In this document: one piece after another, positions 2,085-54,687 of the stretch | Position numbering within the stretch: the stretch's first letter is position 1 | Layout: every line of letters starts with the position of its first letter | Assembly (NCBI RefSeq): GCF_014203225.1 | Contig: NZ_JACHIO010000011.1 | Span: 124,001-188,000, forward strand | Source of the DNA: Granulicella mallensis | Lineage (GTDB): Bacteria; Acidobacteriota; Terriglobia; Terriglobales; Acidobacteriaceae | DNA length: 64,000 nt | Direction of reading: 5' to 3' | Position numbers and translations under genes: made by a program | Notes under the pieces: model-generated | What the model was told of the DNA's origin: nothing | Database searches by the model: none | The model's input: only the letters and a program-made list of their open reading frames with translations

Positions 2085-2501
2085 ATGCCAGCATCTCCTG
2101 CTCCCCCTTCCACCTTTCTTCCTGAACTGGCAGCGCCTCCGGCGTTAGCGTTGGTTCCCAATCCGCTGAGTGAGTTTGAGTTGCGCCAGGTGGCGGATTT
2201 TCTCGCGGATTTTCTGCTGTACGACATGGAAGTTGCGATGCAGCATTCCGCAAGTTGGTATCGCAATCAGGTTGGAGACGACGTCTGCTCTATGAATCAG
2301 GCGATCAGGTTAAGACAGCTAACCATTGAGGTCTGCTGTTCGGCTGTCGATCAAGCTTTGGAAGATGAGCTGAAGGATTCCGAAGCGTCAGAGTTTTGGA
2401 TGGCGGCGCAGATTGGCCTTAAGTTTCTGCTGGCCTTTGTAGTGCTGGCGGGGGTGTGGCTTGCAGTCTGTGTGACTTGGGTGGAAGGCGGTTCGCGATG
2501 A
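2085..2501 (+). CDS. Hypothetical prophage membrane protein
   Basis: This protein of 138 residues matches no family I recognise. The N-terminus is proline/alanine-rich and the middle is helical. A single hydrophobic span of about 20 residues ('FLLAFVVLAGVWLAVCV') lies just before the C-terminus, so it is probably a tail-anchored inner-membrane protein. The ATG at 2085 is preferred over an in-frame TTG at 2076 because GAGG at 2071-2074 is properly spaced only for the ATG. It is the first gene after the operator-bearing promoter and overlaps the next gene by 4 bp. Confidence 0.6.
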   Translation: MPASPAPPSTFLPELAAPPALALVPNPLSEFELRQVADFLADFLLYDMEVAMQHSASWYRNQVGDDVCSMNQAIRLRQLTIEVCCSAVDQALEDELKDSEASEFWMAAQIGLKFLLAFVVLAGVWLAVCVTWVEGGSR

Positions 2502-2839
2502 ACAACCTACCTGCCGGTGTGCTGTATGACTCGCGTGCTCCGTGGAACCTGCCCGATATGTCGCATGGAATAGAAGAGTGCGGAGACTGTTGCGAGCTTT
2601 ATTCGCGGTCAGAGATGTACTTGTTCGAACGTTACTCGTGGATTCATCGGCGGATGGAAGAGGTGCAACTCTGCGAAGCCTGTGTGCCGCGCTGCGGATG
2701 GAAGATCTGTTCCTATGACGAGCGGTGCCGTGAACCCGCGATAAGTAAGAGTGAAGGAGGATGGTGCGCGAAGCATGATCGTGCGGCCGAAGAGTTGGAT
2801 GCGGAAGAAGAATTGGGCGGACAACAGATCGCCGCGTGA
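2498..2839 (+). CDS. Cysteine-rich hypothetical protein, probable zinc binder
   Basis: This 113-residue protein has several Cys pairs (CGDCC near residue 28, C-x2-C near 62, and further Cys/His including 'WCAKHD' near 95), suggesting one or two zinc knuckles. No family is recognised. The start overlaps the upstream stop as ATGA, and a purine-rich ribosome site lies at 2482-2490, so the two genes are translationally coupled. The acidic tail (DAEEELGG) is typical of small phage early proteins. Any role is inference. Confidence 0.6.
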   Translation: MNNLPAGVLYDSRAPWNLPDMSHGIEECGDCCELYSRSEMYLFERYSWIHRRMEEVQLCEACVPRCGWKICSYDERCREPAISKSEGGWCAKHDRAAEELDAEEELGGQQIAA

Positions 2840-2873
2840 TGGATGACGTCTGTGCCTTAAATGGAGAGAAAAG

Positions 2874-3179
2874 ATGCAGGGTATTACGGTGAACAAATAC
2901 GAAGGCAACAAGATGAATGTCGTGGCATTTCGAAGTGGTGAGGCTCGATATGCGAATGCTCGCGAGACGATTTATGCACTCATTGCTGAATCCAGCGACG
3001 GTATGACCAGTAAAGAGATTGCGCAGAGAACCGGCTGGGCTCTCCATACCTTTGGCAGGCGACTTACAGAGTTGAAAGACTCAGGAAAGATTCGGAGCAC
3101 AGGGCAGATGCGCTATGGGGCTGAGGTGTGGATTGCCTATCGCGCTTTTCCGATGCAGTTGTTGATAGAGGCTGCATAA
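2874..3179 (+). CDS. Small winged-helix DNA-binding protein
   Basis: Residues 25-85 read as a winged helix-turn-helix: a first helix around 'TIYALIAES', the segment 'MTSKEIAQRTGWALHTFGRRLTEL' as HTH, then a wing ('SGKIRSTGQMRYGAEVW'). Similar 90-100 residue proteins sit just upstream of terminase in many phages, where they act as regulators or terminase helpers. GGAGAG precedes the ATG. There is no autoregulatory site I can pick out. Confidence is high for the fold and low for the function. Confidence 0.65.
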   Translation: MQGITVNKYEGNKMNVVAFRSGEARYANARETIYALIAESSDGMTSKEIAQRTGWALHTFGRRLTELKDSGKIRSTGQMRYGAEVWIAYRAFPMQLLIEAA

Positions 3180-3224
3180 GTAATCGAGCGTTGAGTGGAC
3201 ATTATTGGAAGCTGGAGGGGGAAG

Positions 3225-4131: not shown

Positions 4132-4568
4132 TGGATGAAGCTCAAATGGACTCAGACTGTGCGATGCAGCCATACAAAAGCCGGCACGAAGCTTATGTGG
4201 AAGGCCTGATGGATGGCAAGACGAAAAAACGGTCTGCCCTGGATGCGGGATTTCCATTGAGCCGCGCACGTAATCCGAAGCGGAGAATCGAAGGGCCGAT
4301 AACTCAGGAGCTAATGCGGAGGGCGATGGTAGAGGCTGGACTGACCCTTGCGTTCCTAGCGCAGAAGACACGCGAGGGGCTGGATGCGAAGCGGCCCCAG
4401 TTGTTGTCCGGCGGGACGGGTAAGGCCGCGACATTTGAGATGGTGGACGATTTCGATATCCGTCTGAAGTACATCCAGCATGCGCATAAGATGCTGGGCA
4501 TTGTCGAGTCGGAGGAGAGAGAGCCTCCGTCGGTGCAGGTAAACATTGTGGCGGTGGGGGCGAAGTGA
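4131..4568 (+). CDS. Phage terminase small subunit-like protein
   Basis: This 145-residue product has an N-terminal helix-turn-helix-like segment ('ALDAGFPLSRARNPKRRIEG') and a helical middle ('LMRRAMVEAGLTLAFLAQKTREGLDA'), as in small terminases that recognise pac or cos DNA and stimulate the large subunit. Position decides the call: it ends in a 4-bp GTGA overlap with the large terminase. The ATG at 4131 is chosen because it overlaps the upstream stop and follows a GGCGGGG tract. The family match is structural and contextual, not motif-level. Confidence 0.65.
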   Translation: MDEAQMDSDCAMQPYKSRHEAYVEGLMDGKTKKRSALDAGFPLSRARNPKRRIEGPITQELMRRAMVEAGLTLAFLAQKTREGLDAKRPQLLSGGTGKAATFEMVDDFDIRLKYIQHAHKMLGIVESEEREPPSVQVNIVAVGAK

Positions 4569-6118
4569 GCAAATCAGCCGCGATCAAATTCGACATTGCG
4601 CTTCAGCCGAAGCAACTCGCGATTTACGAACTGGTTGAGAATTCGCCGGCTACTGAGATTGGTTATGGGGGCGCGCGTGGCGGTGCCAAGTCGCACGGGG
4701 CACGTGGCATTATGCTGCTGAGGCGGCTGAAGTATGCCCGTACCAATGGGCTCTTCCTTATGCGGGTGTGGGGGCAGATCTATCGCAACCATCTGGAACC
4801 TTTGTTTCGCGAATTTCCATTTATGGCGAACTGGTATGTCGGGGGCGATAAGAAGCACCTGACGCTGCCAAATGGTTCGCGTATTTATTTCGCCTCCGCG
4901 GACACGATGGATGACATTCGCAAGATAGCCCAGGGGCCTGAGTATGCGGACATCTTTGTGGAAGAGGCTACACACTTCAGCGAGGAAGAGCTGATCTTTC
5001 TGCCTACGGCGCTTCGCTGGACAGGGAAGTCCGGGATTACTCCGAAGATGTTGTATACCTGCAATCCCGGTAGCCGAGGGCACGATTACATCAAGCGCAT
5101 CTTTAAGGATCGCAGATTCCAGGAACATGAAGAGCCTGATTCGTTTGCTTTTGTTCAGGCTTATGGGTGGGACAACATCGAGTGGGTGCGGCCGTATCTG
5201 CACGAGCAGAACATTACAGACTTTGAGTACTACAACACCTGGACCGATCAGCAGCGGTTCCAGTGTTTTATTGCGAACTCTGACTATGGGGCTAAGTTGA
5301 ACCAGATGCCCGAGAAGGAACGGAAGGCGCATCTCTTTGGCGATTGGGACACGTTCGAGGGACAGTACTATCCGAACTTTATCCGTGCTCAGCGGGAGCT
5401 TAAGGCTGCACAGGTGGGACAGCTAATGCAGCCGTGGTGGAGGCGCTGGGCTTCGTGCGATTGGGGTTATCAACATGCGGCTTCCATTCACTGGCATGCT
5501 TCGGGCCTGGTGTCTCCTGAAGATGCGCGCAGGCATCTCGGGCGTGAGTGGAGTGAGGCTCGCGAGGTTGTGATTACTTATCGCGAACATGTAGTTGCAG
5601 GGCGTCCTGAGATGCTGCTGGCCCAGGACTTTGTGGAGCGATGTGATAACGACGATAGGCGTGAGTTGTCACGGTTCTTTATGTCGCCTGAGACCTTTGG
5701 CGAGCGTAATGCCGTGGCGGATATATTTCGCAAGGTGTTTCGCGAACACTCGTTGCCACAGCCAGAGGAGGCACGCAACGATCGTGTGAATGGCTGGCGA
5801 TTTATCCATACATTGATTGAGCAGGATCGATGGTTCGTGTCGGACCGGTGTGAGGGGGCGCTAACTGCGATTCCTTCGTTGATCTATGACGACAAGAAGC
5901 TTGAAGACGTGATGAAGACAAGCAAGGTCTCGGACGATATCGCGGACGAAGTGCGGTACGGGTTGTTTTCCATGCTGGGACCGAGTGCCAAGCCCTATGA
6001 GGTGAGGCTGCGCGAGACGCTGGCTCCGATTCAGGATATGACCGCGAAGCACCTGGCGCATCTTGACTTCAAGAGGAAGAACCGGAAACGGTCCGCTGGG
6101 TTCACTGTCGGAAGATGA
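4565..6118 (+). CDS. terL: Phage terminase large subunit
   Basis: This 517-residue ATPase-nuclease drives DNA packaging. The Walker A motif is 'GGARGGAKSHG' near residues 36-46 and Walker B is 'ADIFVEEAT' near 136. The C-terminal RNase H-like nuclease domain begins at 'WASCDWGYQHAASIHWHA' near residue 296, with later acidic residues in 'DDIADEVRYG'. Length is normal for the family. The start is GTG in a 4-bp overlap with the small subunit. This is the most diagnostic phage gene in the window. Confidence 0.95.
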   Translation: MSKSAAIKFDIALQPKQLAIYELVENSPATEIGYGGARGGAKSHGARGIMLLRRLKYARTNGLFLMRVWGQIYRNHLEPLFREFPFMANWYVGGDKKHLTLPNGSRIYFASADTMDDIRKIAQGPEYADIFVEEATHFSEEELIFLPTALRWTGKSGITPKMLYTCNPGSRGHDYIKRIFKDRRFQEHEEPDSFAFVQAYGWDNIEWVRPYLHEQNITDFEYYNTWTDQQRFQCFIANSDYGAKLNQMPEKERKAHLFGDWDTFEGQYYPNFIRAQRELKAAQVGQLMQPWWRRWASCDWGYQHAASIHWHASGLVSPEDARRHLGREWSEAREVVITYREHVVAGRPEMLLAQDFVERCDNDDRRELSRFFMSPETFGERNAVADIFRKVFREHSLPQPEEARNDRVNGWRFIHTLIEQDRWFVSDRCEGALTAIPSLIYDDKKLEDVMKTSKVSDDIADEVRYGLFSMLGPSAKPYEVRLRETLAPIQDMTAKHLAHLDFKRKNRKRSAGFTVGR

Positions 6119-17579: not shown

Positions 17580-18455
17580 TTAGTGATCCGGTTCTATTGA
17601 GTCAGTGTTACTGGTTTTTTTATGCAGTGTTCTTCTAAAGTGCCCTTCGAATGCCATACCCAGGGGGATCCACAGACCGACAATCAACCCTCCAATTATG
17701 GCTCCCATTAAGGCATCATGTAGTCGGTCATGGCTTCCTATAGCATTGCTGGCAGTATAGAGGGCTCCATATACAGCGCCACCTAAGGTTGCAAAAAAGG
17801 TAACTCCCAAGAACCTGGTCAATAGGACGAGAACAGGAACTGTATCTTCTGTGTCGCCCCATATATTAAGTACTGGAGGGGCTTTCGCAAGAATGTTGGG
17901 GGCTGTTCTTGTGAAATCTCCCAGGAAGGGACTGATTAGAGCGCCAAGTAATGCTGCAAAGACAGCCATATTTACAGCTTGCTGGGCAATGTTTGTTCTG
18001 GATAATGTCCCGTAGAGCGCTCCAAAAGCGGCCCCGGCCGTGGCAGAAATAAGGACTACAACTACCACTCTGGCTAATATTTTGTAACCTGGTGTTTTGT
18101 TGTCTATATCATGCCAGAGATGCAGTGTTGCTGTGGGTTCCTGATGGGCTGCCGGTGCTTCTGGCAGATTGAGGTTATCGAAAGTCTGGCGAGGACCTTT
18201 ACGTTGATACTCTCTTCTGATTTTCTCTTCGAGTGTGAGGGCAAAACGGTCAAAGGATGGGCGAATCCATCTCTTATTCAACGCTCGGGTTGCTACCCAT
18301 GTGATGATGCCCGTCAGGGCGCATGACAACCCAAAGACAAATGCCGAAGCACTGTTACCGATCAGCGCAGTGATAAGAGCGCTGATTGGTCCCATGGCTG
18401 AAAAGAAGATAATGCATGCGATAAGAAGACATATTGTAAATCTCAGTCTGGACAT
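17580..18455 (-). CDS. Polytopic membrane protein, candidate moron
   Basis: This is one of only two intact genes on the minus strand inside the prophage. It has 291 residues with about six predicted spans in two groups (residues 7-58 and 128-275) around a soluble charged loop. Gly/Ala-rich hydrophobic repeats ('ATAGAAFGALYGTL', 'FATLGGAVYGALYTA') suggest two related halves. Opposite orientation and the inserted context fit a lysogen-expressed cargo gene such as superinfection exclusion or immunity to the neighbouring 461-residue protein. This is inference; no family is recognised. Confidence 0.55.
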   Translation of the reverse strand: MSRLRFTICLLIACIIFFSAMGPISALITALIGNSASAFVFGLSCALTGIITWVATRALNKRWIRPSFDRFALTLEEKIRREYQRKGPRQTFDNLNLPEAPAAHQEPTATLHLWHDIDNKTPGYKILARVVVVVLISATAGAAFGALYGTLSRTNIAQQAVNMAVFAALLGALISPFLGDFTRTAPNILAKAPPVLNIWGDTEDTVPVLVLLTRFLGVTFFATLGGAVYGALYTASNAIGSHDRLHDALMGAIIGGLIVGLWIPLGMAFEGHFRRTLHKKTSNTDSIEPDH

Positions 18456-19554: not shown

Positions 19555-20820
19555 ATGTCTCAGTTCAATGCACAGACCCTTGGTTTGCAGCTTGAGAAGG
19601 TGCGCGACAAAGTACCTCTGCTTTATCAGCAGGACCACTCTCTGTTCGATCGCATCATGAAGCGGGATGTGGAGAAGGTCTCCTCGCGCAATATGCGCAT
19701 CCCGTTGAAGATCCTGGCAGGCGGCAAGGCTCGCCAGGTTAATCCGGATGGCGGCGGTCTTGGCCGCGGGTCCGGCACGACGTACGACATCGCACAGGCT
19801 ACGCCGGTTTATCTGGCCTTTGCGTCGGAGATGAGCTATCTCACTGAGATCTCGACCGACAGCAAAGAAAAGGCTGTCGAGAATGCGGCGAAGGCCGAGC
19901 TCGAGAATGCGATGGAAGGCTTCCGCACCTTTGTGGAGGCGCTTCTGAACACAGACGGATCGGGGACTCTCGATTCGGTGGCGACGGGGACGGGGACGGT
20001 CGTCGGTTCGTTCCAGATTATTGTCAACAACGCAAATGCGTTCTATGACAATCAGGACATCCAGATCTTCTCTGCGCTGGGTGGAACGAACCGCGGCAAG
20101 GTGACCATTCTTTCGGTGGATGCCAACAATAAGGCGCTGAACCTCGCCGCAGCAACCCCGGTACCGGCCGGTACCGTTCCCGGTGATTTGCTCATCATCG
20201 ACGGCGCTCCAGGCACGGCCGCTTCGTCTCTGTTCGGCATCGAGTATCACCATGTGGACTCGAATGTGGGCACGTGGATGCAGCTACAGCGCTCGGCATA
20301 TCCCGGCAAGCTGGATACGCCGCATGTTGGAGCGGCTGGATCACTGATTACGCCGGTGCTGGTTCGTATGCTGATTCAGAAGCAGCGGCGTGCCCTGGGT
20401 GCGGCGACGGGTGCGAAGGACTCCATGCTCTTCCATCTAGGATTGGACCAAGAGGCAGCGTGGGAAAATGTGGGTTCTGTGGTCTCGCAGGTCATTACGA
20501 ACCAAGTTACGGGGTCGAGCTCGCAGGACATGCTGAAGAAGAATGCGCCTACGACGATCGCGGGACGTTCGACGCTGGTGTCCATTCATGCGCAGCCCGG
20601 ACGTATCGATCTGCTGGCTCCGGACCACTGGTTCCGCGCAGAGAACCGGGCGATGGATTACTACGATGTCGATGGCCAGACCATCTTCCCGACGTATGAC
20701 ACTACCGGAGGCATCCAGACTACCAATATCTTCTACCTGTTTACCGGTATGCAGATTTGTATGGATGGTCCGCGGTTTGGGGCGTACATGGATGGGCTGA
20801 TGTTGCCGCCGGGATACTAA
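19555..20820 (+). CDS. Major capsid protein
   Basis: This 421-residue protein is in the position directly after scaffold. It looks like an HK97-fold or P22-like coat protein: an N-terminal arm ('LEKVRDKVPLLYQQDHSLFD'), a spine-like helix around 'EKAVENAAKAELENAMEGFR', and a Gly/Thr/Val-rich beta region. 'GPRFGAYMDGLMLPPGY' closes the protein. CAGGAAAAAT precedes the ATG. Host-type repeats lie on both sides of the gene. The assignment is by order, size and composition. Confidence 0.75.
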   Translation: MSQFNAQTLGLQLEKVRDKVPLLYQQDHSLFDRIMKRDVEKVSSRNMRIPLKILAGGKARQVNPDGGGLGRGSGTTYDIAQATPVYLAFASEMSYLTEISTDSKEKAVENAAKAELENAMEGFRTFVEALLNTDGSGTLDSVATGTGTVVGSFQIIVNNANAFYDNQDIQIFSALGGTNRGKVTILSVDANNKALNLAAATPVPAGTVPGDLLIIDGAPGTAASSLFGIEYHHVDSNVGTWMQLQRSAYPGKLDTPHVGAAGSLITPVLVRMLIQKQRRALGAATGAKDSMLFHLGLDQEAAWENVGSVVSQVITNQVTGSSSQDMLKKNAPTTIAGRSTLVSIHAQPGRIDLLAPDHWFRAENRAMDYYDVDGQTIFPTYDTTGGIQTTNIFYLFTGMQICMDGPRFGAYMDGLMLPPGY

Positions 20821-21773: not shown

Positions 21774-22475
21774 ATGATTACAGCAAACGAAGTAGCCTCC
21801 GCTGTCGGCGGGCTGAATAAGCGGGCGCGTCAACCTATCCCGGATGCGTTGAAACGCAATCCGCCACTGTACATCTTCAATATCTATGAGATGAAGCATA
21901 CGCGTGGGCTGGGATCGCTGGGCACCTTTCGTGTGCCGGCTTGTGAGCCAGGTGAGGCTTACTCGAAGCCACTTATCGTTCCGGGAGAGTTTTTCGATGA
22001 GTTCGACCGTGGTGAAGGCTCGCTGGGGTGGACCTATGAGACAGGTGCTGACGTTGCGAAGGCTATCTTGAATGTCGGCCATCGTGATGGAGCTGACCTG
22101 AGTGCCTGGGGAGTATTTCTCGCCGCCGATAAAAAGCCTACGCGGGAGGAGTTGTCTGCGGCGCGTGAGAAGCTTACAGCCAAGATGCGCGAGGTGCTGG
22201 CTGCTGGCGATGCACTTGCCTTGCAGGGAGATAGTGGTCTTGCGCAGATCCAGGCGATGCATCGTAAGGCGGCGCATTATTTGAAGCAACATCGCGACTG
22301 GATCAATGCTGAGCCTGTTGAGATGCGTGAGTGCCACGGCTGCGGAGCCTTCGTGAAGCCGACGTTGCCGCGCTGCCCACAGTGCAAGGCTCCGTTCGAC
22401 TTAGTTAAGTGCCGTGAGCTTTGGCCGATGGAGTATCCGATTATGGCTCAACGATCTACCACTGTGGCAAGGTGA
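21774..22475 (+). CDS. Zinc-ribbon structural-region protein
   Basis: The ATG at 21774 follows AAAGGAG; 233 residues. The N-terminal 100 residues are globular ('IFNIYEMKHTRGLGSLGTFR'), followed by helices. The C-terminus carries a four-cysteine ribbon: C-x2-C in 'CHGCGAF' and C-x2-C in 'CPQCKAPFD', near residues 195-215. It probably binds one zinc. Similar proteins occur next to capsid genes in some phages, but I cannot name a function. Confidence 0.6.
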   Translation: MITANEVASAVGGLNKRARQPIPDALKRNPPLYIFNIYEMKHTRGLGSLGTFRVPACEPGEAYSKPLIVPGEFFDEFDRGEGSLGWTYETGADVAKAILNVGHRDGADLSAWGVFLAADKKPTREELSAAREKLTAKMREVLAAGDALALQGDSGLAQIQAMHRKAAHYLKQHRDWINAEPVEMRECHGCGAFVKPTLPRCPQCKAPFDLVKCRELWPMEYPIMAQRSTTVAR

Positions 22476-22482
22476 GGAGTTG

Positions 22483-22545
22483 TCAGGTTGTTAGCTCTCA
22501 GTTGAAGCGAGTTCTAGCTTTCTCTACTGAGGGCTAACAGCCAGA
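22483..22545. repeat. Imperfect inverted repeat
   Basis: 21-base arms (22483-22503 and 22525-22545) pair with four mismatches; the core TGTTAGC...CTCAGT pairs with ACTGAGG..GCTAACA. It directly follows the zinc-ribbon gene and may end its transcript, though there is no T-run. Confidence 0.45.
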
Positions 22546-22554
22546 AGATGCCAT

Positions 22555-22740
22555 TTGCTCGGGTATGAATCGGCTCCCGGCAAAGTTTCCAACTACTTCA
22601 ATACACCGCAACCAAGCGTGGACGATAACGAGCAGAGGTTTCAAGGTCCACCGATCATCTTGAAATCTCTGGCCCCTGCAGCATTCCCCAGCAGCGGAAC
22701 GCCCAGAACCAATCTCTATGGATGGACCGAGTACCAATGA
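22555..22740 (+). CDS. Possible small prophage protein
   Basis: A 61-codon frame from a TTG start, ending 'GTPRTNLYGWTEYQ'. The composition (Pro, Asn, Gln, Gly) resembles short phage structural peptides, and the frame lies in the main coding direction. The ribosome site is weak (AGAAG) and the start is rare, so it may not be translated. Confidence 0.3.
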   Translation: MLGYESAPGKVSNYFNTPQPSVDDNEQRFQGPPIILKSLAPAAFPSSGTPRTNLYGWTEYQ

Positions 22741-22762
22741 GGCGCGCTAACGTTAGCGATGT

Positions 22763-23263
22763 TCACTGAATTTCGATAGCTGCAATGCCCTCGAATTTTT
22801 TAGCGATCACCGCAGCCTCTTCTCTTGAGAGGTTCGTCTTCACGGTTCTGGGTGTGCCCTCTACGAGGTCTTTGGCGTCTTTTAGACCGAAGCCGGTAAC
22901 CTCTCGTACCACTTTGATGGTGCCAATGATGTTTTTGCCGCGCTCTTTCAGGATGATGGTGAAGGCGGTCTTGTATTCCGCCGCAGAGGCGCCTATCTGG
23001 CCAGGTACCGGAGAGCCGAGTAGAAAGCTGATGCGAGCATCTATTTTGGCCTCGAGTATGGAGTTCATACGAGCATCGATGCGAGCGTCAATCTGGCTGG
23101 TGTTGAGTTGATTGGATGAGCCGTTGAACTGATCTTCGCGCTGCTTTGTATCGGAACGACTGCGGCCCAGGCCTCGAATGATGCCCTTGATGATCTCGTA
23201 AATAAGAATGACAGTGGCCGTTGGCAGCAACGACTGCCTGATCCATTGATCCCAGTTGTTCAT
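22763..23263 (-). CDS. Membrane-anchored protein with a ribosomal bL12 C-terminal-like domain
   Basis: This 166-residue protein has an N-terminal hydrophobic span (residues about 10-32, 'LLPTATVILIYEIIKGIIRG') and a charged coiled linker with the heptad-like 'IDARIDARMNSILEAKIDAR'. Residues 99-166 closely follow the L7/L12 C-terminal domain: 'IKVVREVTGFGLKDAKDLVE' followed by a Gly-x-Pro and Val-Lys. Residues that bind elongation factors in bL12 (Ile/Lys/Arg of IKxxR and the Lys of DAK) are kept. It is on the minus strand against the late genes, so it is probably expressed in the lysogen. Its function is unknown. Confidence 0.75.
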   Translation of the reverse strand: MNNWDQWIRQSLLPTATVILIYEIIKGIIRGLGRSRSDTKQREDQFNGSSNQLNTSQIDARIDARMNSILEAKIDARISFLLGSPVPGQIGASAAEYKTAFTIILKERGKNIIGTIKVVREVTGFGLKDAKDLVEGTPRTVKTNLSREEAAVIAKKFEGIAAIEIQ

Positions 23264-23415
23264 GCTTCCTTGTTCCGTCCGTAGCGTGGCAATTACAAGA
23301 CCTCAGCAGTATATCTTCCGGCGCAGGTGCAGGGCTGTCTGTCGTTATGCGTCTGCGCATGATTACCAGATTTTCATCTTGCATCGGCCGCTCATAGCTA
23401 CAGGAGAGAAAGACT

Positions 23416-24186
23416 ATGCCACTCGTCGAACTGCCGCCGCGTTCGCCCTATCCCACGCTGGACCATGTGCTGCGTCTGGCGCGTGTTTATACCAACGATG
23501 CTGCGCAGACGTTGGATGGAAACCTGCTTGCTCTGTCGCAGCCTTACACGCTGGAATATGTGAACTCCGCCTGGCACAAGCTACAAGACGAGCTTGCGGA
23601 GGCCGGAGCGCCAAGGTTAGAGCGCGAGGTGATTCTGCAGCAGGTTCCTATTGCTTCTGCGCTTGACCCTGCCGTGCAGGTCAGTGTGAGTTATATAGGC
23701 AGCAATGATGGCGCACTGCTGTGGTCTTCGCCAATATTGCCACAGGACCTGATGGAGCCAATGCGGCTGCATGAGCGGCAGACCGGGATGATTGGGAACT
23801 TTATCCCCATGAAACAGTCGACAGATGGGTTGCCACGTATTGTGCAAGGGCAGCGACTGCGCTGGTGGGACTGGGAAGATGACAGCCTGTACTTTACGGG
23901 CGCGACGCAGTTGAACGATCTCTTGCTGCGGTATTACGCCTATCTGCCCGATATCCCAAACGATCCAAAGGCTCAGCTCGGGATTCTGCGCTGTCAGCGA
24001 GCGATGGGCTTCTATATCGCTGGAGAGTTTGCCGCAGCTCGCGGATCGACCGCTGCAGCCGATCTGATGAGTAAGGGCGATGACGCTGTGCAGAAGATGA
24101 CGATTCGTATTGCGCGGGTCAAGCAACGGCTTTCGCGCAGGCGTAAACCGTATGGACGAGTGCGCGGCAGCGCCAGTAACTACTAG
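23416..24186 (+). CDS. Head-tail connector/adaptor-like protein
   Basis: This 256-residue protein has an ATG after CAGGAGAG. It is rich in helices near both ends with a beta-rich middle ('QVSVSYIGSNDGALLWSSPI'). A helical C-terminus ('MTIRIARVKQRLSRRRKPYG') is strongly basic. Similar proteins between capsid and tail hub are head-completion or adaptor proteins. It is followed after 12 bp by the tail hub gene. The call is based on position and size. Confidence 0.5.
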   Translation: MPLVELPPRSPYPTLDHVLRLARVYTNDAAQTLDGNLLALSQPYTLEYVNSAWHKLQDELAEAGAPRLEREVILQQVPIASALDPAVQVSVSYIGSNDGALLWSSPILPQDLMEPMRLHERQTGMIGNFIPMKQSTDGLPRIVQGQRLRWWDWEDDSLYFTGATQLNDLLLRYYAYLPDIPNDPKAQLGILRCQRAMGFYIAGEFAAARGSTAAADLMSKGDDAVQKMTIRIARVKQRLSRRRKPYGRVRGSASNY

Positions 24187-30215: not shown

Positions 30216-30326
30216 GATGGTGATAGTGTACTCGAACATCTTTATTTATGCCGATCGCGCCAGGGAGATGGAAACGGTTACCGTACAGCAGTGATTTGAT
30301 CGACCGCAAAAAACAAATTCAATCAG

Positions 30327-30346
30327 GCCCTCTTCGGAGGGCTTTT
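30327..30346 (+). terminator. Terminator-like hairpin before the tail spike
   Basis: GCCCTC (30327-30332) pairs with GAGGGC (30337-30342) around a TTCG tetraloop, followed by TTTT. The sequence just after it (CTTTTCTATTGC) recurs before the gene at 32520. Confidence 0.65.
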
Positions 30347-30367
30347 CTATTGCACGAAAGAGGACCT

Positions 30368-32449
30368 ATGTCAGGCATTCGATACGACGGCAATATCACA
30401 ACCGCAGCACAGAATGTTCCCTTGGGTGCAGCAGCTCCCATGTACACGATGCCCTATGCCCAGGTCACAGTCTATGAATACGGAACGCCTCCGCTTACCC
30501 TCGCGACCTTGTTCGCAGATGGGGCACTGACAGAGCCGATTCTGAACCCGATCACCACTGATTCGCAAGGTCGGTTCGGGTTCTGGATCGTGGCAGGCGT
30601 GTATTCCTACACCGCAAAGTCGGCGAACGGCGTGCTGATCGGAAACTACAACCTGACACTGACCGCCCCTCAAGGGCCAATGGGAACGCCGGCGACTGTG
30701 GCGATCGGGACTGTGGGCACAGGAGCACCAGGCAGCGCCGCGAGCGTGAGTAATTCCGGCACTCAGAGTGCGGCCGTGTTCAACTTCGAGATTCCGCAAG
30801 GCCCCGTCGGGCCGACCGGAGCACAGGGCCCCACTGGCGCAACTGGAGCTTCTGGCGCGAACGGCGTGGCGTCGATGGCACAACTGGCGTCTCTGCGCGT
30901 CAATGAGCCGACCCTCCAAAATTTCTACAATCCTGCGAACGCGGTCGCAAATTCATTTGTGAGCCATGTCGATGGAACGATCAACACTTTGGCGAATTTC
31001 ACCGCAACCGGTTTCATTGTGGCGAACGCGGGTGGTTCGATGACGTCAAGCCTTCCCCTCGCTAACAACGGAAACGCTGGCGTAGCATTTTACGATGGCA
31101 ATCTTACTTTCATCAGCGGATTGTCCCCAACAACGACAACGTTTTCTGTCCCGGCAACAGCCGCTTATGTCAGGCTCACCTGGCAGACTTCGGTTTTGGC
31201 CGCCGCGGTCGGGCTGGTCATGGTAATTGCGGGCACTGTGCTTCCCTCTCCGGCGATCGCGTTCGGAACCTACGCGACAAACATCATCGACAGCAAAGAC
31301 CTTATGACAGTGGCTCAGGCTCAGGCTGCTGTGGCAGCGGGGCAACCTCTCGTTATCAACCTTTTCGACCTGAACCGCATCACGGTGGGTGCCTACAATA
31401 CCCTTACCAACGCCATCGATCCAACCCAGACGACGCTGTATGTCTCTGGGAATATGCCCGTTGTCGGCGGCCAAACATACACAATGGCAAAGGGAACGGG
31501 AGGAGCATCAAATTCGAGTTTTGGAGGCGCGTGGCTGGATGCAGCCAAGAACGTAATCAGCACATTTGCCACTCCAGAGACAGACGGGGAAAACTTCACG
31601 GCACCCGCAAAAGCGGTGTATTTCCTCTTCACGGGAGTCTTAGCGAGCTCTGAGGGTGGACCTGCCGTGCAGATGTTTACGGCTGGAACGACTGTGCCTT
31701 CGCCTTACATTCCGTTTGGGCGATCGACTCCAACTCCCACGGCGGCGACCTACTCGACGGGCAACGGCAAGAACATCGGCGTGTTGGGCGACAGCTTCTC
31801 CGCCTGGTTCAACAATGAATGGCAGAATATCGTTCTCGCTCGCACCGGCGCGAATCTTACGTTTCAGGATTCGCGAGGAGGTCGACAATGGACGCAGGCC
31901 CTTGAGTGCTACGGCACGGTCACACCGGGAGCGGCGCTGTCGACCTATAGCACCACTTACCCGATCATCGACCAGACGAATTTTGCATTCAATCTGACAG
32001 GCCGCGCTCCGCAGATTTCCACGCTCGGAAACACTCTCGCTCAGAATCTCGCCACCACGGAACTGCTGATTATCGAGTTGGGTGAGAACGACAGCACCTA
32101 TGCCGTAGGGGCTCCGAGCGATCCTACTACAGCAGGAACTCTCTGGGGAAACATGAGATGGGTCGTGGAGGCCTATCTCACCGCAAAGCCTACTCTGCGA
32201 ATTGTCATGATCGGTAACACATATCGAGGCGACGCACCGACGCTCGCGGCACAGCAGGCCGTGGCGGCTGCGGAGAAGGCCTTCGCTCAGTCCTATGCGA
32301 TCCCTTATCTGGATCTCTTCAACGTGGGCGGTAACTCACTCTTCACAAATACGGCCTACACGCGCACGGACTTCATTCACCCGAATGACTTCAATTTCCA
32401 GAACGTGTACGCACCGGCAGTGGCGAACTTCATCCAGCAATGGTTGTAA
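30368..32449 (+). CDS. Tail spike with collagen-like stretch and SGNH esterase domain
   Basis: The ATG at 30368 follows AAAGAGG; 693 residues. The N-terminal 110 residues would attach to the tail. A short collagen-like run follows ('GPVGPTGAQGPTGATGASGA', near residue 150). The long middle is beta-rich. The C-terminal 200 residues are an SGNH/GDSL hydrolase: block I 'GVLGDSFSAW', block III 'IIELGEND', block V 'DFIHPND' with the Asp/His pair. Phage SGNH domains de-O-acetylate surface polysaccharide, so this is the probable receptor-processing protein. The exact sugar is unknown. Confidence 0.8.
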   Translation: MSGIRYDGNITTAAQNVPLGAAAPMYTMPYAQVTVYEYGTPPLTLATLFADGALTEPILNPITTDSQGRFGFWIVAGVYSYTAKSANGVLIGNYNLTLTAPQGPMGTPATVAIGTVGTGAPGSAASVSNSGTQSAAVFNFEIPQGPVGPTGAQGPTGATGASGANGVASMAQLASLRVNEPTLQNFYNPANAVANSFVSHVDGTINTLANFTATGFIVANAGGSMTSSLPLANNGNAGVAFYDGNLTFISGLSPTTTTFSVPATAAYVRLTWQTSVLAAAVGLVMVIAGTVLPSPAIAFGTYATNIIDSKDLMTVAQAQAAVAAGQPLVINLFDLNRITVGAYNTLTNAIDPTQTTLYVSGNMPVVGGQTYTMAKGTGGASNSSFGGAWLDAAKNVISTFATPETDGENFTAPAKAVYFLFTGVLASSEGGPAVQMFTAGTTVPSPYIPFGRSTPTPTAATYSTGNGKNIGVLGDSFSAWFNNEWQNIVLARTGANLTFQDSRGGRQWTQALECYGTVTPGAALSTYSTTYPIIDQTNFAFNLTGRAPQISTLGNTLAQNLATTELLIIELGENDSTYAVGAPSDPTTAGTLWGNMRWVVEAYLTAKPTLRIVMIGNTYRGDAPTLAAQQAVAAAEKAFAQSYAIPYLDLFNVGGNSLFTNTAYTRTDFIHPNDFNFQNVYAPAVANFIQQWL

Positions 32450-34486: not shown

Positions 34487-34562
34487 TGGTGGACGCGGTA
34501 GGGATCGAACCTACGACCAGTCGATTAAGAGTCGAATGCTCTACCAGCTGAGCTACGCGTCC
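34487..34562 (-). tRNA. tRNA-Lys (anticodon CTT), CCA encoded
   Basis: On the minus strand the sequence folds as a cloverleaf: a seven-pair acceptor stem (GGACGCG with CGCGTCC), the D-loop 'AGCTCAGCTGGTAGAGC', anticodon loop CT-CTT-AA, and 'GGTTCGATCC' T-loop, ending in ACCA. The anticodon CTT reads AAG. Its 3' end faces the prophage, a classic integration site, but I see no second copy of its 3' end at the left border. Confidence 0.97.
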
Positions 34563-34798: not shown

Positions 34799-35653
34799 TT
34801 AGCCTACGAAGTCTACGTTGGCCTTGTGTGGGATGATGCCGCGTTCGTAGCCCATGTCGAGGATTTTGCGAATGGCTTCGCGGCCGTCTTCGCCGTAGTT
34901 CAGGGTGCGCTCGTTTACGTACATACCGACGAAGCGGTTGGCTAACGTTGGGTCAAGGTCGCGGGCGAACTGCATTGCGTATTCCAACGCCGCTTCGCGG
35001 TGGTCGAGCGCGTGTTGAATGCTCTCGCGCAACGCGTTTGTCGTGATGACCTGCACCTCTGTGCCCAGGGAGCGGCGGATGGCATTGCCTCCCAACGGCA
35101 ACGGCAGGCCGGTTTGCTCGCGCCACCAGACGCCGAGGTCGAGGATTTTCTTCAGTCCGTCGCGCGTGTAAGTGAGTTGGCCTTCGTGGATGATGAGCCC
35201 GGCGTCGAACTCGCCCGCCACCACGGCGGGAATGATCTTGTCGAAGTCGACCGTAACAGTCTCGATCTCCGGAGCAAAGAGCTTCAGGGTGAGATAAGCC
35301 GTGGTGAGAGTGCCGGGGACGGCGATGCGGAGCTTCTTCACTTCGTCCAGGGTGTAGGCCTTGGGGGCAACGATCATCGGACCATAGTTCTCGCCGACGG
35401 AGCCGCCGCAGGCCATCAGGGTGTAGTGCTCCTGAAGGTACGGATAGGCGTGAAAGCTGATGGCCGTAACATCGTAGAACTGCTCGTTCATAGCCTTGCG
35501 GTTGAGCGTTTCGATGTCCGTGAGCGTGTGGTTGAAGCGATAGCCCGGAACGCGCACTTTGCTGGTGGCGAGTCCGTAAAACATGAACGCGTCGTCGGAG
35601 TCAGGGCTATGGGCGATGCTGATGTCGTGAATTTCAGTTGATGCGGAGGTCAT
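34799..35653 (-). CDS. mqnD: 1,4-dihydroxy-6-naphthoate synthase (futalosine menaquinone pathway)
   Basis: This 284-residue protein starts 'IHDISIAHSPDSDDAFMFYG', the family signature. It has the periplasmic-binding-protein-like fold of MqnA/MqnD: 'YDVTAISFHAYPYL', 'LMACGGSVGENYGPMIVA', and the lobe return 'EFDAGLIIHEGQLTY'. MqnD converts cyclic dehypoxanthine futalosine to 1,4-dihydroxy-6-naphthoate in the cytoplasm. AAGGA precedes the ATG. No other menaquinone gene is adjacent, which is common because futalosine genes are often scattered. Confidence 0.9.
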   Translation of the reverse strand: MTSASTEIHDISIAHSPDSDDAFMFYGLATSKVRVPGYRFNHTLTDIETLNRKAMNEQFYDVTAISFHAYPYLQEHYTLMACGGSVGENYGPMIVAPKAYTLDEVKKLRIAVPGTLTTAYLTLKLFAPEIETVTVDFDKIIPAVVAGEFDAGLIIHEGQLTYTRDGLKKILDLGVWWREQTGLPLPLGGNAIRRSLGTEVQVITTNALRESIQHALDHREAALEYAMQFARDLDPTLANRFVGMYVNERTLNYGEDGREAIRKILDMGYERGIIPHKANVDFVG

Positions 35654-54618: not shown

Positions 54619-54687
54619 GCTGTTGTTCTTGCCTTTCTTGTTGTCATTCCCTGCGGGAATGACAACAAGAAAAGCAAGAACAACAGC
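54619..54687. repeat. Long hairpin of repeat-B type
   Basis: 33-base arms (54619-54651 and 54655-54687) pair with one mismatch around a TGC loop. The centre GTCATTCCC/GGGAATGAC is the shared core of repeat B. It lies in the 162-bp gap between fuconate dehydratase and permease and could uncouple their expression. Confidence 0.8.

Follow-up and report, generated by a model that had tools for sequence, protein, structure and literature searches.

A probable phage cargo gene of Granulicella mallensis encodes a bL12 C-terminal domain behind a probable membrane anchor

A small gene on the minus strand of DNA from the soil bacterium Granulicella mallensis, at 22763-23263 of the 64,000-nucleotide stretch analysed here (the window), encodes a 166-residue protein, P0001, in which the C-terminal domain of ribosomal protein bL12 is preceded by a predicted helical linker and a probable membrane anchor. 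The gene looks like phage cargo, placed antisense within a structural module. It is with the bL12 C-terminal domain that the ribosome recruits translational GTPases, and the leading interpretation, tentative and given somewhat less than an even chance, is that P0001 is a moron-type cargo protein acting as a membrane-anchored stalk mimic that binds these factors. The open reading frame had been picked out from the DNA letters alone, and its coordinates and strand proved exact, with a complete frame from ATG to stop. The features of the gene are as follows.

22763-23263, minus strand: gene for P0001, 166 aa, stop codon included, with probable membrane anchor, helical linker and bL12 C-terminal domain
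22766-22978, minus strand: bL12 C-terminal domain, residues 96-166 (the PF00542 match itself covers residues 101-162)
23018-23101, minus strand: predicted helical linker, residues 55-82, with IDARIDAR-type repeats (low-confidence model and sequence)
23177-23233, minus strand: borderline hydrophobic stretch, residues 11-29, probable membrane anchor (hydropathy)
23267-23270, minus strand: AGGA, a Shine-Dalgarno-like run 3 bases upstream of the ATG (sequence)

The score of the domain, the AGGA run and the existence of an 87%-identical copy differing by an in-frame indel together rule out a spurious gene. This copy lies in a congener (genome G002), and AAGGAAGC stands ahead of both genes. The plus-strand ORF at 22785-23111 looks like the reading frame commonly seen opposite a bL12 domain, and the host rplL has a similar one. 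A scan of 22400-23500 confined to sigma-70-like promoters found none (0 sites, against 0.8 in shuffled sequences).

A Pfam-A search of P0001 listed a single family at E-values up to 1, Ribosomal_L12 (PF00542), at E 4.7e-19 and 68.9 bits against a cut-off of 25.9, which is far above chance, and the closest solved structure by sequence is a bL12 chain (E 2.6e-16). AlphaFold2 modelling gave a mean pLDDT of 44 from an alignment of 3 rows and of 60.5 from one of 42 rows; in the latter the block means across residues 101-166 were 64-73, and the modelled helices at residues 4-10, 15-32 and 55-82 were of lower confidence than the domain. The modelled domain superposes on E. coli 1ctf over 67 residues with an rmsd of 1.0 A and a Z score of 12.8, and bL12 domains align with it at Z up to 13.0 and 28-53% identity. 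Profile search and fold thus bear out the original prediction of a bL12 C-terminal domain, and its further claim, that the ribosome-binding N-terminal domain is absent, agrees with the NCBIfam bL12 equivalog model TIGR00855, which matches residues 90-162 at model positions 48-120 of 125 only and, at 72.2 bits, falls short of its cut-off of 84.4. Because the N-terminal dimerisation and uL10-binding domain was looked for with this model and went unmatched, P0001 is not a ribosomal bL12, and a canonical bL12 was rejected. It shares with ribosomal bL12, as encoded by the host rplL, the C-terminal domain and a Gly/Ala/Pro-rich stretch before it, and differs in having an extra hydrophobic helix and a helical linker, in being encoded outside the rpl operon and in having no N-terminal dimerisation/uL10-binding domain.

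The membrane span that had been predicted in the N-terminal part is plausible, but its hydropathy is borderline. The best 19-residue Kyte-Doolittle mean is 1.66, at residues 11-29, and the corresponding stretch of the G002 copy has 1.59, both close to the usual threshold of 1.6; Glu23 and Lys26 fall within the stretch, and the Wimley-White octanol sum over residues 7-25 is +4.8 kcal for P0001 and +4.55 kcal for the G002 copy. Residues 11-29 are probably a membrane anchor, an amphipathic helix lying on the membrane surface being a possible alternative. They are followed by basic residues (Arg30, Arg34, Arg36, Lys40 and Arg42; Arg34 is Leu in the G002 copy). According to the positive-inside rule the positively charged flank of a span stays cytoplasmic, and the bL12 domain should therefore be cytoplasmic. 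The coiled linker of the original prediction survives at low confidence, as a single predicted helix at residues 55-82 carrying the IDARIDAR-type repeats, with pLDDT block means of about 47-64.

The factor-contact surface, which had been predicted to be kept, is mostly retained. The two phage copies were compared with 15 distinct host domains hand-picked from the tree described below (14 from the same family and 1 from the same order), with attention to E. coli positions 65, 66, 69, 70, 73, 80, 82 and 84, which we take to be the factor-contacting residues of bL12. The equivalents of V66, I69, K70, R73, L80 and K84 are the host residue in both phage copies, but the equivalent of K65 is Ile, one of 10 host-invariant positions altered in both copies, which also include E82 (Asp). 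IF2, EF-Tu, EF-G and RF3 are described as binding to the C-terminal domain of bL12 at a conserved site, positively charged and formed by helices 4 and 5 (PMC6753160), and the domain is given a further role in RF1 recruitment (PMC6076264). Since the helix 4-5 face is mostly retained, binding of translational GTPases by the P0001 domain is a reasonable inference from these residues.

The cargo character of the gene follows from comparison with related elements. In the window, the ORFs on either side of it are separated by 940 bp, compared with 84 bp in the congener G010 (capsid 93% identical), where the P0001 gene is absent between them, and 1 bp in the viral contig L104 (capsid 68% identical), where the slot is empty; L104 is the one for which this spacing was worked out among 28 viral-contig loci with a related capsid. 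An extra gene thus stands between two genes that adjoin in relatives, the mark of a moron or cargo gene. The congener G002 has the same module at about 90% DNA identity and carries its copy of P0001 in the same slot and the same orientation, together with about 2.5 kb of additional DNA containing an ORF of 918 codons, of which the window retains the 3' end only. The slot is laid out as follows.

21774-22475, plus strand: left flanking phage gene, 233 aa from its ATG, with two Cys-X2-Cys pairs by eye and no PHROG match
22439-23405, no strand: cargo insert, the stretch missing from the related G010 element, with approximate limits taken from blastn ends
22555-22740, plus strand: left-over 3' end of the ORF that spans 918 codons in the G002 element (from translations; blastn break at 22501/22588)
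23416-24186, plus strand: right flanking phage gene, 256 aa, a "neck gene" by position alone, with no Pfam or PHROG match

The G002 element also contains, antisense to the 918-codon ORF, a 153-codon ORF for P0003 (L075:10546-11007), which has strongly hydrophobic stretches as well as DAR-type repeats resembling those of the P0001 linker; codon-position GC is no guide to which of the two overlapping ORFs is real. P0003 is 30% identical to the N-terminal part of P0001 over 92 aa, perhaps through the repeats alone. Its single PADLOC match is weak (4TM effector, E 0.015), and of 61 genomes G002 was the only one in which it was found.

The original prediction placed the gene on the minus strand of a prophage. 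The antisense position among phage genes is confirmed by a terminase large subunit (4565-6118, plus strand), a weak major-head-protein match (19555-20820, plus strand, E 2.5e-4) and a GDSL-domain protein resembling tail fibres (30248-32449, plus strand), but no integrase was recognised among those ORFs of the element that were scanned, and the prophage may for this reason be a remnant. A tRNA-Lys lies at 34487-34562, and a menaquinone-biosynthesis gene follows at 34799; no exact attachment repeat of the tRNA of at least 13 bases was found in the window and the 6 kb upstream. "Prophage" is a fair term as to origin, with an active state unproven. As to the superinfection exclusion suggested earlier, P0001 and P0002 were without a PADLOC match at E up to 0.1, which bears on it neither way. 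A second minus-strand ORF in the structural module (17580-18455) encodes 291 aa that look by eye like a multi-span membrane protein, without a Pfam or PADLOC match and with one weak PHROG match (E 1.4e-4). Outside the module, the sequence at 54647-54683 of the window belongs to a dispersed repeat, 37-42 bases of which recur at 90-97% identity within the related G002 and G010 elements.

The domain probably came from a bacterial host. The host's own bL12, encoded on another contig (G000:C32) after a 239-codon ORF read as rplJ, is 62% identical to the P0001 domain over 71 residues, and the P0001 gene has no such rplJ-rplL context. The region around the host rplL is closest, among 8 named contigs compared, to that of a Granulicella sapmiensis MAG (88% over 2.3 kb). 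In a tree of 57 distinct bL12 C-terminal domains over 72 columns, in which few forks are resolved, bootstrap support is unsettled and both phage rows have an unusual residue composition, the phage copies form a pair with support of 100/100 and fall within a set of 6 rows with four Acidobacteriaceae bL12s (support 99/96; branch of 0.55 changes per site). In the alignment, the phage copies have in common with the host bL12 and the domains L032, L033 and L066 a gap of one residue close to the C-terminus, which is not present in L007, L017, L009, L006 and L027. Nesting among Acidobacteriaceae bL12s and identity to the host protein therefore suggest that the domain was probably captured from the rplL of such a host, which is the simplest reading of these sequences.

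Comparison of the two phage copies bears on the main competing explanation, according to which P0001 has no function at present and is a fusion left to drift: 3' sequence from a host rplL would have come to lie behind a stretch coding for a membrane peptide, and the gene would be little expressed or idle. The dN/dS between the copies is 0.49 (Nei-Gojobori), compared with 0.05-0.15 for 8 neighbouring genes. In a simulation of neutral mutation with an assumed transition bias, the observed non-synonymous changes were close to expectation for the whole gene (20 codon changes vs 22.8, P 0.18), the bL12 domain alone (9 vs 11.5, P 0.13), the linker (6 vs 7.0, P 0.34) and residues 1-46 (5 vs 4.3, P 0.87). 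The simulation thus does not distinguish the change from neutral, and no purifying selection can be demonstrated between the copies. This favours idle drift, as do the failure to find a sigma-70-like promoter, the very narrow distribution of the protein and the failure to recognise an integrase in the element. Against it, the copies differ by an in-frame indel of 2 codons and neither contains a stop, whereas only 35% of simulated mutants at equal distance keep a stop-free frame. Three-point arithmetic with P0001, the host rplL and L066 further gives a dN of about 0.20 and a dS of about 1.6 on the phage side of the path from host rplL to phage domain, which suggests constraint, though part of this path may predate capture. 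Idle drift is considered rather unlikely, and is the strongest competitor of the GTPase-binding stalk mimic.

Relatives of P0001 are few. Among 398 genomes of the family, the first 95 residues of P0001 were detected in 2 and the capsid in 16, and PF00542 matched twice per genome in 3 of 61 relatives (G000, G002 and G010). Scans with P0001 returned 3 loci in viral contigs, 17 records in a phage collection and 61 in a plasmid collection; among the matches listed (30 of the 61 for plasmids) there was no full-length relative, all lying within the bL12 domain, and the phage and plasmid records were below 60% identity, with none covering 80% of P0001 and many looking like host rplL. A scan of GTDB contigs returned 9 loci, 8 of them Acidobacteriota bL12 genes by match and 1 a Jiangella repeat protein. 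The right-flank gene (23416-24186) had no relative in viral contigs. A hypothetical-protein family, PRK06771 (NF005269), presumably a membrane protein of Bacillus, matches residues 107-135 weakly (E 0.049), and at 14.3 bits against a cut-off of 90 P0001 is not a member.

The domain itself is more widespread. A profile scan of IMG/VR found 75 loci with a bL12-type domain in many different architectures, 17 of which also match the bL12 N-terminal half in a loose automatic test whose hits are in some cases, such as L138, probably false. By eye, zinc-ribbon-like cysteine motifs are joined to the domain in the viral contigs L116 and L134 (match at 3001), and in L131 it lies within a longer protein. 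Three of the 75 loci have a 19-residue stretch with a mean of at least 1.6: L152, apparently read in the wrong frame; L113, from a 4.9 kb contig whose nature is doubtful; and L170. In the L170 protein (2464-3216, 250 aa) the bL12 C-terminal domain (PF00542, E 7.3e-15) is accompanied by a hydrophobic helix and a long coil-type helix, the same layout as in P0001; the protein is encoded beside an HNH-endonuclease gene, differs in length and neighbours, shows no likeness seen outside the domain, and is apparently an independent case of this architecture. Two bacterial proteins have a hydrophobic N-terminus by eye: L076:6909-7754 of G010 (281 aa), with a degenerate partial bL12 domain (31.8 bits) and a neighbouring ORF that reads like HslU, and L074:7791-8447 of Jiangella endophytica (218 aa), with three short bL12 'GLKDAKD'-type repeats; unlike P0001, neither is phage cargo as far as seen. 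Together with L170 they indicate that a membrane-type bL12 architecture seems to recur, rarely.

This variety of architectures in viral contigs would suit a membrane-bound adaptor, in which the bL12 domain has acquired a new phage or host partner that is not a translational GTPase, for example in assembly or lysis, and the loss of the K65 equivalent along with the change of 10 host-invariant positions points the same way. The helix 4-5 face, mostly unchanged in both copies, argues against such a new partner, and the gene, being antisense to the structural module, is not obviously a late gene, which also counts against it. We regard an adaptor of this kind as rather improbable, less so than the explanations that follow and more so than idle drift.

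Phage-borne bL12 domains are already published, and the membrane-anchored form is a variant of them. As reported by Mizuno et al. 2019 (PMC6375957), bL12 occurs in 7 cultured phages as well as in uncultured ones; it was acquired several times independently and frequently forms part of a larger polypeptide. P0001 resembles these proteins in that its bL12 domain is encoded among phage genes, and differs in its membrane-anchored form and in its cargo slot flanked by structural genes, neither of which that paper seems to describe. In the literature searched, mostly outside subscription journals, no description of a membrane-anchored bL12-domain phage protein was recognised. The same paper bears on a further possibility, that a phage bL12 takes the place of the host stalk protein in the ribosome: mass spectrometry is reported there to detect the bL12-domain protein of Salmonella phage FSL SP-076 in E. 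coli 70S preparations, but a tagged phage bL12 did not permit ribosome purification (PMC6375957), and the uL10-binding N-terminal part is unmatched in P0001, which makes ribosome entry very unlikely here.

A comparably slim chance is given to P0001 being a membrane-tethered stalk decoy that serves counter-defence, drawing off host proteins that grip the stalk to reach the ribosome. Cami1, a CRISPR-signalled ribonuclease on the 70S ribosome (PDB 8phj, by title), would be one such stalk-gripping protein, and proteins with the transmembrane, coil and bL12-domain layout of L170 would then be convergent solutions. A search for the Cas10 palm domain found none in the three genomes searched (3/3), both carriers included, which counts against counter-defence, and on this result the idea that P0001 decoys type III CRISPR effectors here was rejected for these hosts. 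A ClpS-like proteolysis adaptor, prompted by the fold being common to ClpS, is barely credible: ClpS chains align with the modelled domain at Z up to 9.5 and 7-18% identity, a weaker match than that of bL12 domains, no ClpS family appeared in Pfam-A at E up to 1, where Ribosomal_L12 stood alone, and the ClpS-like fold settles nothing about function.

The tentative preference thus stays with the membrane-anchored stalk mimic that binds translational GTPases, with the borderline span, the lost K65 equivalent and the other altered host-invariant positions, the near-neutral change, the missing promoter match and the occurrence in 2 of 398 genomes as points against it. The anchor would sit in the inner membrane with the bL12 domain in the cytoplasm, where the domain may still bind IF2, EF-Tu, EF-G and RF3; P0001 might then retain some of these factors at the membrane, or compete for them there, and translation in the lysogen or infected cell could be altered as a result. 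Any benefit to the phage is speculation, and so are the roles in superinfection exclusion or stress control suggested earlier.

The role of phage-borne bL12 domains is a question that PMC6375957 seems to leave open, and one that P0001 could address. With one small gene, a known binding face and known partners, it offers a compact test system. If the stalk-mimic interpretation is true, a membrane-tied bL12 domain would give a phage a direct way of relocating translation factors or lowering their supply, and of doing the same to proteins that make use of the stalk.
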